Origin: Cohaesibacteraceae bacterium
GTDB lineage: Bacteria; Pseudomonadota; Alphaproteobacteria; Rhizobiales; Cohaesibacteraceae
Assembly (NCBI GenBank): GCA_016764535.1
Contig: JAESRR010000019.1
Coordinates: 7,717 to 20,101, forward strand
Length of the DNA: 12,385 bases
Direction of reading: 5' to 3'
Part shown: positions 5,938 to 9,821 of the stretch, piece by piece
How the letters are laid out: each line of letters opens with the position of its first letter
How positions within the stretch are numbered: position 1 is the first letter of the stretch
The notes under the pieces: generated by a model
The model's input: the letters and a program-made list of their open reading frames with translations, nothing else
Databases searched by the model: none
Told to the model about the DNA's origin: nothing
Translations under genes and position numbers: made by a program

Positions 5938-7137
5938 ATGACATATTCAGTTTTGCGTAATTTCCTTCTTGCCGGTTCTGTGCTGGTTCCCCTTTCTGCG
6001 GGAGCCGGTGAGCTGGATGTCTCGGGTTATATTGGCGGTGAAGTCACCGTCTTTCCCCGGGAAGGTCTCTACGCAGACCAGCTGAAACATCTGCAGGCAG
6101 GTGTGACAGCTCGGCCCGAAATATCCTGGTCTTCTGAAGATCGCAATACATCGGCAACGATCATTGGCTTTGGCCGTTACGATCATGCCGATGAAAAGCG
6201 CAATCATGTTGATTTACGTGAAGCATGGCTGGCACATGATTTCGATGGCATCGAAGTATTGGCCGGGGTCAACAAATTGTTCTGGGGTGTTACCGAAAGC
6301 CGCCATCTGGTTGATATCATCAACCAGTCAGACGCGCTTGAATATAACAACCGTGACGCCAAACTTGGTCAGGCCATGTTCTCTGTCACTGCCCGGCAGG
6401 ACTGGGGTGATCTGGCACTGATCGCGATGACCGGATTCCGTGAACTTGATTTTCCGGGACCAGACGGGCGACTGCGTCCAGGTCTCACTGTTGATACCGA
6501 TAATGCTGTGTTTGAACACAGTGCCGAACACTGGGCACCGGATTTTGCTGTGCGCTATTCCAACACCTTTGGTGATGTGGATCTGGGCCTGAGTGCATTT
6601 CACGGTACCAGCCGTGAAGCACGGTTTGTTCTCAATACAGGCAATGACACGCTGGTTCCCTATTATGACCGGATAAGCCAGCTTGGTCTGGATGTGCAAT
6701 ATACAGCAGATTCATTGCTGCTGAAATTTGAAGGCATTATCCGCAAGGGCCATGGCGATACATTTGGTGCGGTTGTGACCGGCGCTGAATATACGCTGTA
6801 TCAACTGGCTGGAACCGGCATGGATCTGGGGTTAATTGCTGAATATCTGTATGATGGACGTGATGACAGTGCCCCGATTACGCCTTACGACAACGATGTG
6901 TTTGTCGGGCTGCGCCTTGCCATGAACGACACCCAGGATACATCAGCGCTTGTGGGCGCGAGTATCGATCTGGATGATGGCGCCATGGGTGTGCGGGCCG
7001 AATTTGAACGCCGGATTATGGATGGTCTGACGTTTGAAGCCGACATTCAGTATTTCGTCAATGCCGACAAGGATAGCGACAGTTATGGCTTCCGCCGTGA
7101 CAGCTATGCTTCGATCACATTGAAGAAACATTTCTAA
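5938..7137 (+). CDS. Predicted outer-membrane beta-barrel protein
   Basis: The 399-residue protein has a signal peptide (MTYSVLRNFLLAGSVLVPLS, cut near SAGAG/ELDV) and then alternating polar/hydrophobic strands, with many Asp/Gly turns and aromatic girdle residues. It ends in ITLKKHF, the C-terminal phenylalanine expected for recognition by the BAM machinery. No named family could be assigned with confidence. It looks like the porin or export-channel style proteins (DUF1302 or alginate-export-like) that often accompany RND/MMPL genes, but it is shorter than typical DUF1302 members. It starts 4 bp after the LolA-like gene, so it is in the same operon, and it is the natural outer-membrane acceptor or exit for that pathway. 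The operon ends at the strong terminator 45 bp downstream. Confidence 0.8.
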   Translation: MTYSVLRNFLLAGSVLVPLSAGAGELDVSGYIGGEVTVFPREGLYADQLKHLQAGVTARPEISWSSEDRNTSATIIGFGRYDHADEKRNHVDLREAWLAHDFDGIEVLAGVNKLFWGVTESRHLVDIINQSDALEYNNRDAKLGQAMFSVTARQDWGDLALIAMTGFRELDFPGPDGRLRPGLTVDTDNAVFEHSAEHWAPDFAVRYSNTFGDVDLGLSAFHGTSREARFVLNTGNDTLVPYYDRISQLGLDVQYTADSLLLKFEGIIRKGHGDTFGAVVTGAEYTLYQLAGTGMDLGLIAEYLYDGRDDSAPITPYDNDVFVGLRLAMNDTQDTSALVGASIDLDDGAMGVRAEFERRIMDGLTFEADIQYFVNADKDSDSYGFRRDSYASITLKKHF

Positions 7138-7182
7138 CAGCTTGTGTGAGCTGGTTCGGTTTTCAATCGGAACAGACGACTT

Positions 7183-7211
7183 GAGGCGGCCTTCGGGTCG
7201 CCTCTTTTTTT
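7183..7211 (+). terminator. Intrinsic terminator of the RND operon
   Basis: GAGGCG (7183-7188) pairs with CGCCTC (7199-7204). The stem extends through a G-U and two C-G pairs to a TTCG loop (7192-7195), the very stable cUUCGg tetraloop. Seven T residues follow (7205-7211). This is a textbook Rho-independent terminator 45 bp after the barrel gene. Confidence 0.92.
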
Positions 7212-7296
7212 GCCGTATCCTGTGAGACGTTGGTGTACACAGCGAACAGGAAAAAAGTAAAGTTGTTGGCACACTCCGAAATTCATCTCCCACCGG

Positions 7297-7453
7297 GTCG
7301 TCCTGAATTTATTTCAGGACCCATAGTGATGCCCTTCAAACACTCTCGAATTTGGTTTGAATTTAGGGGCATGTGTCGGATGAATGAGATCTTCCTGGTC
7401 CGCGGTGCTCGCCGCTAGTCTGAGCTATGGATGCTGATCTGCATCAGCATGAC
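7297..7453 (+). repeat. Array unit 1 element
   Basis: Both hairpins are intact: left 7300-7320 (8-bp stem) and right 7431-7450 (8-bp stem). The core carries the variant ACTCTCGAATTTGG, which is shared with unit 6. Confidence 0.85.
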
Positions 7454-7544
7454 ACAGCGGGTGGAACGGGCGTGAGTGGTTGTCAAAGTCGCCGGATGTT
7501 GGTTCCAGTGATGATATAGATTTCTGAAATTCTACCCTCACTGT

Positions 7545-7699
7545 GTCACATTGAATTTATTTCAGGACACATAATGATGCCTTTCAAACACAATCGGAGT
7601 TGGTTTGAATTGCGGTATGTGTTGGATGAATGGCTATTTCCTGGTCCGCTGTGCTCGCCGCTACTCCGAGCTATGGATGCTGATCTTCATCAGCATGAC
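7545..7699 (+). repeat. Array unit 2 element
   Basis: The left end is the variant TGTGTCACATTGAA, which weakens the left stem. The right hairpin has CTTC in place of CTGC in its loop. The core variant ACACAATCGG is shared with unit 7. Confidence 0.85.
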
Positions 7700-7789
7700 A
7701 GTGTGGGTGGAACGGGCGTGAGTGGTATCAAAGTCGCCGGATACTGGTTCCAGGATTGTTGTAGATTTCTGAAATACATCTCCCTCCGG

Positions 7790-7944
7790 GTCGTCCTGAA
7801 TTCATTTCAGGACCCATAGTGATGCCCTTCAGACCCCACCGGGTTTGGTTTGGATTGCGGAATGTGTTGGAGAAGTGAGGTCTATCTGTTCCGCTGTGCA
7901 CGCCGCTATTCCGGGCTATGGATGCTGATCTGCATCAGCATGAC
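7790..7944 (+). repeat. Array unit 3 element
   Basis: Both hairpins are intact, with TTCAT in the left loop. The core variant CCCCACCGGGTTTGG is shared with unit 4. Confidence 0.85.
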
Positions 7945-8036
7945 ACCGTGGGTGGAACGGGCGTGAGTGGAAATCAAAGGTACAGGATATTGGTTCCAGC
8001 GTTGATATAGATCTTCTGAATTTCGACATTCTCCAG

Positions 8037-8191
8037 GTCGTCCTGAATTTATTTCAGGACCCATAGTGATGCCCTTCAGTCCCCACCGGGTTTGCTTCGA
8101 ATTGGGGTATGTGTCGGATGAATGAGATCTTCCTGTTCCGCTGTGTTGGCCTCTACCCAGAGCTATGGATGCTGATCTGCATCAGCATGAC
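8037..8191 (+). repeat. Array unit 4 element
   Basis: Both hairpins are intact. The core is most like unit 3. The linker after it (GCGTTTGTTTTGTTGTCCGA) is shared with unit 5. Confidence 0.85.
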
Positions 8192-8282
8192 ACCGTGGGT
8201 GGAATGGGCGTGAGTGGGCATCAAAGGAACTGGATACTGGTTCCAGCGTTTGTTTTGTTGTCCGAAAATCGCCTCCCTCTGT

Positions 8283-8437
8283 GTCACACTGAATTTATTT
8301 CAGGACCCATAGTGATTCCGTTCAGACACCGCCGGGTTTGGTTTGGATCGGGGTATGTGTTGGATGAATGGATATTACTAGTTCTGCCGTGCTAGCCGTT
8401 ACTCTGAGCTATGGATGCTGATCTGCATCAGCATGAC
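8283..8437 (+). repeat. Array unit 5 element
   Basis: The left end is the TGTGTCACACTGAA type as in unit 2, and the right hairpin is intact. The core has ACACCGCCGGGTTTGG. Confidence 0.85.
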
Positions 8438-8528
8438 ACCGAGGGTGGAACGGGCGTGGGCGGGTATCAAAGTCGCCGGATACTGGTTCCGGCGTTTGTT
8501 TTGTTGTCCGAAATTCTACCCTCACTGT

Positions 8529-8652
8529 GTCCTTAGTAATGCCCTGCAAACACTCTCGAATTTGGTTCGGATTGGGGTAAGTGTCGGACGAATGGATATT
8601 ATCTGTTCCGCTGGGCTGGCTGCTATTCAGAGCTATGGATGCTGATCTGCAT
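8529..8652 (+). repeat. Array unit 6 element, both hairpins deleted
   Basis: The left end jumps from GTGTCC to TTAGTAATG, losing about 22 bp that include the left hairpin. The right end reads GATGCTGATCTGCAT directly into TGTGGGTGG, losing the second arm of the right hairpin. Core and linker are otherwise normal. Confidence 0.85.
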
Positions 8653-8741
8653 TGTGGGTGGAACGGGCGTGTGGGGTTGTCAAAGTCGCCGGATACTGGT
8701 TCCAGGATTGTTGTAGATTTCTGAAATGCATCTCCCTCCGG

Positions 8742-8896
8742 GTCGTCCTGAATTCATTTCAGTGTCCATCGTGATGCCTTTCAAACACAATCGGATTTGG
8801 TTTGAATTGGCGTATGTTTCAGATGAATGGATATTACCTGCTCCGCTGCGCTAGCCGTTACTCTGAGCTATGGATGCTGATCTGCATCAGCATGAC
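8742..8896 (+). repeat. Array unit 7 element (last)
   Basis: The left hairpin has a decayed second arm (TTCAGTGTCC). The right hairpin is intact. The linker after it breaks off within about 10 bp (GTGGGAGGAAG), shortly before the stop codon of the minus-strand gene at 8931. Confidence 0.85.
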
Positions 8897-8930
8897 ACGG
8901 TGGGAGGAAGAAGCGGTGTTCAATCCGCAA

Positions 8931-9821
8931 TCAACCTGCCTTTGACGAGCCTTCTCCGCCCTTCCGATAAACATCAAAATCGATATCATCCAGCTCCAGC
9001 GTGCGCAGCATGGTGCCCAGACCAAAGATAACCAGTAGCTGGAAAAAGATGCTGAAGATCACCGGTTGCAGGAATGCAATATCGAGCAGCTTCACCAGAT
9101 TATCAAGAAACAGAAAAACACTCATGCCAATGGACGCGACAAAGTAGATGCGGATTTGCGTGCGGGCATGTTTGAAGCGGTCTGCGGTTTTTTGCCATGG
9201 ATCGAGTTTTGGGCCGCGCATGAAAAACCGGACCATGAAAATAAAGAACCCATTGGTCAGAACGACCGCAAAAATAGAGGTGGCTGCACTCATGGGACGA
9301 TGGTTGAGGATCAGGTCTGTGTATATGAAGAAGCTGATACAGATCAGTGTGAATATCAGCGCCATCCATATCATTGGACGAGGCGCATAATCGCTCAGAT
9401 GCCTTGGAGTGAGAGAGGCACTGCGTTGTGACTGCGATCGGGCCTGACGCATTTTGCGAAAATGGCGAAACGTCGATAATTCCAGTAGCAACTGCGGTGC
9501 GGCCTGCACGAAGAAAAAAATGGTCACAAGTAATTCTTCGCCATTGCCGGATGGCTTGTAACCAGCTTGCAGGGCATAGAGCAGAATGCAAATGCCGATC
9601 CCGGCTGTCATGCCGTTTATCAGTGCAAAATAAAACAGTGTCCGTGCACCTTGAAATCCCGCCAGTTTGTCAAATGGTGCCGGGTAGAATTTGGGATGGG
9701 TCTGCGGCGGGTATTTACGCAACACAGTTGAAATTCTGGCATGGATTTGCGCCGGATAATAAACCGACATAACAAATATCTGACACAGGAATACGCAATA
9801 AAATAGAACTGTGACTGACAT
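8931..9821 (-). CDS. Seven-TM integral membrane protein, GntR-linked, unknown function
   Basis: The 296-residue protein has seven predicted hydrophobic segments (about residues 4-22, 62-85, 97-115, 150-168, 180-199, 224-242, 250-271). A basic cytoplasmic-like loop lies at about 120-148, and an acidic tail ELDDIDFDVY precedes the C-terminus. A Pro/Tyr-rich loop (YPPQTHPKFYPAP, 37-49) after TM1 is its most distinctive feature. I do not recognise a named family, but I recall similar proteins next to short GntR regulators in other proteobacteria. The gene starts 1 nt after the GntR stop (TGACATG), with GGGAG 6 nt before its ATG, so the two are translationally coupled. It has no ATPase partner here, unlike the ABC transporters usual for YtrA-type regulators. 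It probably responds to, or removes, a membrane-active signal, but that is inference from the partner alone. Confidence 0.85.
   Translation of the reverse strand: MSVTVLFYCVFLCQIFVMSVYYPAQIHARISTVLRKYPPQTHPKFYPAPFDKLAGFQGARTLFYFALINGMTAGIGICILLYALQAGYKPSGNGEELLVTIFFFVQAAPQLLLELSTFRHFRKMRQARSQSQRSASLTPRHLSDYAPRPMIWMALIFTLICISFFIYTDLILNHRPMSAATSIFAVVLTNGFFIFMVRFFMRGPKLDPWQKTADRFKHARTQIRIYFVASIGMSVFLFLDNLVKLLDIAFLQPVIFSIFFQLLVIFGLGTMLRTLELDDIDFDVYRKGGEGSSKAG

Follow-up and report, generated by a model that had tools for sequence, protein, structure and literature searches.

A tandem array between two convergent genes of a Cohaesibacteraceae bacterium is likely to be a cluster of tail-to-tail REP dimers of the CGTC superfamily, duplicated locally in tandem and neutral or selfish in nature. 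The array lies in a stretch of 12,385 nucleotides (GenBank assembly GCA_016764535.1, contig JAESRR010000019.1, positions 7,717 to 20,101 of the forward strand) that was analyzed as a whole and is called the window here.

A tandem array in a convergent gap

TRF applied to the window reported 6.8 copies of a repeat with a period of 246 (77% matches, score 1610; Table 1). When the units were aligned, six were found between two end partials; unit 5 lacks the B body and unit 6 lacks one A arm. Six A hairpins are intact and one is half-deleted, and six B hairpins are present, the B body being deleted at the seventh position. A first-pass annotation, made from the letters of the window alone, had described seven units of about 246 bp arranged head to tail, which is a fair account apart from the end partials and the deletions in units 5 and 6. 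Inspection of the units also confirmed its description of the unit ends as inverted repeats that have diverged and that each contain a hairpin. Chance as the source of the array is excluded by the TRF score and by some 79 relatives located outside the window.

Table 1. Features of the array and its surroundings, in positions of the window.
Feature	Position	Strand	Basis or remark
ORF, 399 aa, outer-membrane-like by eye only	5938..7137	+	without Pfam or NCBIfam match
Terminator-like hairpin with T run, after plus-strand operon, outside array (hairpin 7183-7204)	7183..7211	+	terminator scan
Tandem array of REP dimers, about 6.8 copies, period 246	7278..8909	+	TRF and unit alignment
B hairpin, partial unit 0	7296..7324	+	alignment
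A hairpin, unit 1, REP tag on minus strand	7428..7454	-	A-stem pattern match
B hairpin, unit 1, stem with 4 mismatched pairs	7546..7572	+	alignment
A hairpin, unit 2	7674..7700	-	A-stem pattern match
B hairpin, unit 2	7789..7817	+	alignment
A hairpin, unit 3	7919..7945	-	A-stem pattern match
B hairpin, unit 3	8036..8064	+	alignment
A hairpin, unit 4	8166..8192	-	A-stem pattern match
B hairpin, unit 4, stem with 3 mismatched pairs and arms from two hairpin types	8282..8310	+	alignment
A hairpin, unit 5	8412..8438	-	A-stem pattern match
Unit 5, deleted B body, tag adjoins tail	8523..8541	+	alignment
Unit 6, A hairpin without one arm	8636..8652	-	alignment
B hairpin, unit 6, stem with 3 mismatched pairs and arm mix reciprocal to 8282	8741..8769	+	alignment
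A hairpin, partial unit 7, stop codon of minus-strand ORF about 33 nt away	8871..8897	-	alignment
ORF, 296 aa, convergent to ORF 5938..7137	8931..9821	-	without Pfam or NCBIfam match

The stops of the plus-strand ORF (7137) and the minus-strand ORF (8931) are separated by a gap of 1,793 bp, of which the array takes up about 91%. The remainder contains a terminator-like hairpin. Neither flanking ORF matched Pfam or NCBIfam, and an Rfam scan of 7000-9200 returned four matches, all below threshold and none within the array. Elsewhere in the window there is a tandem trio of receiver-domain-like response-regulator ORFs (102-539, 692-1048 and 1261-1752; the first was tested and the others were judged by eye), in which the middle ORF is short compared with the other two and seems to be missing a central part.

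Hairpins fit the CGTC REP superfamily and form tail-to-tail dimers

On the plus strand, hairpin A reads TGGATGCTGATCTNCATCAGCATGACA, and hairpin B follows downstream in the opposite sense. Each dimer runs from hairpin A, with its tag on the minus strand, through a spacer to hairpin B, with its tag on the plus strand, so that the tags point inward. Read from its tag, a hairpin has TGTC or CGTC, followed by a stem of 8 bp with a loop of 4 (A and part of B) or 5 (B), and then CCA. The unpaired CGTC/TGTC tag and the CCA tail occur in most A and B hairpins, and GGTC occurs in some of the window B hairpins. The tag-to-tag distance is 91-92 nt in the window and mostly 69-76 nt at other loci (one at 91).

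As described in the available text of Di Nocera et al. (2013, PMC3733652), CGTC REPs have a TGTC/CGTC tag, a stem of 8-9 bp usually starting with AT, a loop of 4-5 and a CCA tail, and are reported chiefly from alpha-Proteobacteria. The stem lengths and loops here lie within these ranges, and several B types start with AC, AA or GT rather than AT. Judged by sequence, hairpins A and B fit this superfamily, and in the terms of that paper the A-B pair is a tail-to-tail (TT) dimer of unlike partners. The two sets of repeats also have in common the unlike dimer partners and the intergenic location. The organization differs. In the published set, head-to-head dimers prevail and both TT dimers and groups are rare, whereas here the TT dimer is the dominant form, its spacer is conserved in length, and it occurs in tandem clusters. 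This published prevalence counts against our preferred reading; the head-to-head arrangement is an organizational preference in print and not a defining sequence feature. The large REP clusters in that text are mostly tandem singletons or dimers together with flanking DNA (PMC3733652).

Stems are kept by two-sided changes

The first-pass annotation had proposed to look for covariance of the hairpins across copies. Pairing was seen in 93.6% of the stem cells of 35 distinct A hairpins, compared with 89.6% in 24 distinct loop-5 B hairpins and 93.8% in 6 distinct loop-4 B hairpins; without a spurious array-end row, all cells pair in the other five of the last class. Pairing in A and in both B classes was above all 500 shuffles, a result that is not a probability because the sequences are related. 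Two-sided changes were found at 3, 5 and 5 of the 8 stem pairs (A, loop-5 B and loop-4 B, respectively), and the stems are thus kept by such changes. Three of the six window B stems carry 3-4 mismatched pairs (7546, 8282, 8741), and these broken stems count against the preferred reading.

Within a dimer, the likeness of A to its own B (0.719) equals that with shuffled partners (0.720; 60 dimers), which means that A and B do not co-vary. These data do not support a long hairpin formed by pairing of A with B.

The dimer is dispersed and each array is probably local

The own genome (G000) comprises 3.86 Mb in 302 contigs and is 87% complete. A search of it with the A-stem pattern (at most 3 mismatches) gave 63 matches, all of them on 20 of the 302 contigs, and 0 with a reversed control pattern; a pattern for one B type gave 17 matches. 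With a dimer profile, 87 copies were found at 36 loci of the 20 A-stem contigs. Of the elements, 61 had served to build this profile and so match by construction. The profile found 0 elements on 20 control contigs, an absence that is partly by choice since the controls were taken from match-free contigs. The whole-genome spread rests on the A-stem pattern search and not on the profile. These data show that the repeat is not unique to this locus, and the stems covary, so the case that had been named as refuting the first-pass interpretation, a unit that is both unique and not covarying, does not apply.

We then compared dimers and outer linkers by mean pairwise identity. For dimers, this was 0.761 within the same array (73 pairs), 0.652 between different loci of one contig (95) and 0.579 between contigs (2247). 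For outer linkers, the corresponding values were 0.777 (41), 0.579 (44) and 0.393 (996). Comparison of the window with the others gave 0.527 for dimers and 0.332 for linkers, and we take the latter to be near chance, as judged without a shuffled control. Because the dimer is common between loci and the linker is largely array-specific, these data support the idea that what is dispersed is the dimer and that each array is a local tandem duplication. They also bear out the first-pass argument that amplification was tandem since the linkers are repeated too. The label of a MITE-like non-autonomous element stands in that the family is dispersed, hairpin-ended and non-coding, and is refined in that the unit is a CGTC-type REP pair and not a classical MITE. 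Arrays on three contigs (C234, C118 and C202) have linkers in common with up to 0.86 identity. This counts against the preferred reading and implies that part of the spread takes flanking DNA along.

Dimer-to-dimer spacing is 215-270 bp in at least one instance at 19 loci and 175-186 or 349-365 elsewhere. The spacings gather at 215-270 bp even though several such arrays have no common linker; such gathering is not expected from random duplication, and this too weighs against the preferred reading. No predicted gene overlaps any of the 36 repeat loci by more than 60 bp, where the gene caller was a simple codon score that missed the ORF at 8931. At some loci the B hairpin region is longer, and a similar open frame is kept there in two contigs (L033 620-1320, L031 8057-8632).

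Loci of one contig have the same strand in 10 of the 12 multi-locus contigs (permutation p ~0.003), a further point against the preferred reading. Replication-strand polarity was considered as the cause and was not established: among the 12 of 20 contigs with |z| > 2 for third-position GC skew, the skew agrees with locus strand in 7, disagrees in 4 and is mixed in 1. The strand agreement within contigs also prompted us to consider an integron attC-like array. This was set aside because the linkers (21-197 bp) are too short for cassettes and also repeat within an array, and the genes between loci look ordinary.

Exchange between copies and the soundness of the bin

The nearest neighbor of a window unit shifts along the length of the unit, as in a mosaic. 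Among 57 same-locus B pairs, counted without the spurious array-end row, 17 had one or more two-sided stem-pair changes (mean flank identity 0.70, compared with 0.76 for the other 40), and eleven had four or more, with flanks 0.51-0.76 alike. In the clearest body swaps, five or six two-sided stem changes come with a new loop, with same-locus flanks 64-76% alike and 51-59% in three others. From this it might be proposed that REP hairpin bodies are exchangeable cassettes, an unrelated stem-loop taking the place of the old one while tag and tail stay fixed; the missing B body in one window unit can be set beside this. However, in the window B hairpins 8282 and 8741 the arms of two types are mixed reciprocally, and the same holds for C234:18906 and C234:7442. 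Exchange therefore reaches inside the hairpins, and breaks that also fall within a hairpin, as in ordinary recombination, make swapping of whole cassettes less likely. We regard it as doubtful. If true, it would mean that a hairpin-specific cut-and-replace activity on single-stranded DNA acts on CGTC REPs. To our knowledge, no mobilizing enzyme of CGTC REPs is known.

The genome-wide copy number and clustering would mislead if the repeat contigs came from another organism and had been binned here by error. Base composition gives some reason to ask this, with G+C at 0.478-0.522 in the 20 repeat contigs and 0.431-0.496 in the 20 controls, GC3 at 0.523 and 0.439, respectively, and the family confined to 20 of 302 contigs. 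Tetranucleotide correlation is highest between controls (0.58), but the signature does not split the groups (repeat-control 0.52, repeat-repeat 0.53). Moreover, for a protein of one repeat contig (C123), the 15 best matches outside the own genome all come from the same family with 71-82% identity, and a complete genome of that family (G001) has dimers with like inner ends and matches the profile weakly (E 0.004-0.006). The MMPL protein of the window contrasts with the C123 protein, its best match outside the own genome being in another family of the order (43%). On balance we consider a bin artefact unlikely, and the nature of the window array would be unaffected even so.

Related repeats and transposases

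As a comparison, we searched for the repeats in other genomes. A 496-bp piece of the array used as a query gave a weak match in 1 of 60 relatives (G027). An exact TT-layout pattern gave 36 matches in the own genome, where many elements were counted on both strands. Within the order, 22 of 249 genomes matched, the own included, with 5 matches in the runner-up; within the class, 41 of 385 matched, again including the own, with 4 in the runner-up. This pattern was modeled on the tags of the own genome, so it passes over looser relatives, and chance seems to account for many single matches. With it, no other genome among those searched approaches the copy number of the own genome. TRF found no such tandem array in two stretches of G001 (L149, L151). 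By eye, G001 also has a long insert within a REP hairpin, and in a small genome of the same class (G485) CGTC-type palindromes stand just a few tens of bases apart (L161).

A search of the 87%-complete own genome for Y1 transposases (Y1_Tnp) gave 0 matches. This leaves the dispersal unexplained and counts against the preferred reading. As far as the assembly covers the genome, it also argues against the dimer being a REPIN proper, that is, a non-autonomous element moved by a REP-associated tyrosine transposase (RAYT). The dimers do resemble REPIN clusters in their layout, their dispersal, their intergenic location and their tandem clustering together with flanks, as far as the available text of PMC3116915 describes them. 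The dimer and linker identities show an inverted REP doublet as the dispersed unit, and G001 has two Y1 proteins (open frames, 236 aa) and a few dimers. On the other side, the available text on CGTC REPs reports no transposase link (PMC3733652), and A and B of a dimer do not co-vary, unlike a jointly recognized long hairpin. We consider a REPIN proper quite improbable. RAYT linkage was not found in the own genome, and in G027 a Y1 gene lies on the same 6-kb contig as a REP pair of other layout.

A link to IS110 and bridge RNA found no support: there are two IS110 genes, of which the C222 copy lies outside any repeat and the C28 copy is on a contig without an A-stem match. No use of these hairpins by phage or IS110 was seen; the transposase survey covered Y1 and IS110. 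One IS110-family transposase gene (L070 14620-15560) lies amid apparent ABC-transporter genes and outside any REP.

Transcription and protein binding

The array could instead be a selected RNA-level element, with hairpins that serve as terminators, as mRNA 3'-end stabilizers or as an insulator between opposing transcripts. It does sit in a convergent gap, and published CGTC REPs are mostly behind genes, according to the available text of PMC3733652. A predicted gene is present on both sides at 20 of the 36 loci (the other 16 are without a neighbor gene on one or both sides), and these include 6 convergent and 2 divergent cases. However, 12 of the 20 are unidirectional, and the first-pass suggestion that the array could insulate or terminate convergent transcription is not supported.

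In 7000-9100 there are 7 terminator-like sites, compared with 1.8 (SD 1.5) in shuffles, and 0 promoter-like sites, compared with 2.4 expected. All of the former are on the plus strand; three precede the array and four fall within it (7829, 8226, 8230, 8474). Yet the sites in the array lie outside hairpins A and B and in some units only, with none on the minus strand, and hairpins A and B have no T runs. The plus-strand operon already has its own terminator-like hairpin, which speaks against a special role in convergent transcription; the four plus-strand sites in the array are the contrary point. G.T and A.C mismatches are balanced (5 vs 4 in A, 6 vs 6 in loop-5 B; small numbers), so a strand-specific RNA constraint is not visible, and the fold of one unit has a z of -1.6 as RNA and -2.5 as DNA. 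Given the predicted sites, a regulatory role of the array is possible, but selection at the RNA level is decidedly unlikely.

By analogy with E. coli BIMEs, for which binding of gyrase and IHF has been proposed, the array might bind gyrase, IHF or another nucleoid protein, and the arrayed palindromes in intergenic gaps are in line with this, but spacing and hairpin bodies vary and we consider it very unlikely. A published abstract states that several proteins bind BIMEs. The array is probably a neutral or selfish repeat tolerated in the intergenic gap, with no specific function; if it affects mRNA ends or supercoiling, it would do so as a by-product.

Origin of the array and comparison with known systems

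Local duplication of REP dimers suggests the following sequence of events. A single dimer would first have landed between the two convergent genes, presumably carried by a mobilizer. The dimer and a neighboring segment of DNA may then have been duplicated, and duplicated again, via unequal recombination or replication slippage. Either process would be promoted by hairpins that stall forks. Later exchange from copy to copy could have given rise to mosaics, to mixed or replaced hairpins and to the occasional deletion of a hairpin. This genome, whose many tandem arrays hold dozens of dimers and whose hairpins are mixed and swapped inside the arrays, is a good one in which to trace the spread of CGTC REPs. 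It is also a warning that a tandem hairpin array in a convergent gap is not necessarily regulatory.

E. coli BIME arrays, like the present array, consist of alternating inverted REPs and linkers in tandem, with a REP sequence unrelated to the hairpins here. A difference is that the linkers here are largely private to each array. A description of BIMEs as REPs in alternation is also given in the available text of PMC2817692. In REPINs and their tandem clusters, as far as they are covered in the available text of Bertels and Rainey (2011, PMC3116915), an inverted REP pair is dispersed and clusters repeat the unit with its flanks, as here; those REPs belong to the GTAG superfamily and have RAYTs, whereas ours are of the CGTC type and a RAYT was not found. 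Arrays of Neisserial intergenic mosaic elements (NIMEs) with dRS3, in the available text of PMC3898611, are intergenic, 200-2700 bp long and composed of CGTC-type palindromes with repeated spacers, a likeness to the present array. There, the dRS3 pattern ATTCCC(N8)GGGAAT flanks RS repeats and NIMEs are linked to surface-protein genes; this pattern fits none of the B stems listed here. Our literature searches returned no recognizable description of the present REP dimer family. Together, these comparisons indicate that the array is a known kind of repeat, CGTC REP dimers, expanded into a BIME-, REPIN- or NIME-like cluster of unusual arrangement.
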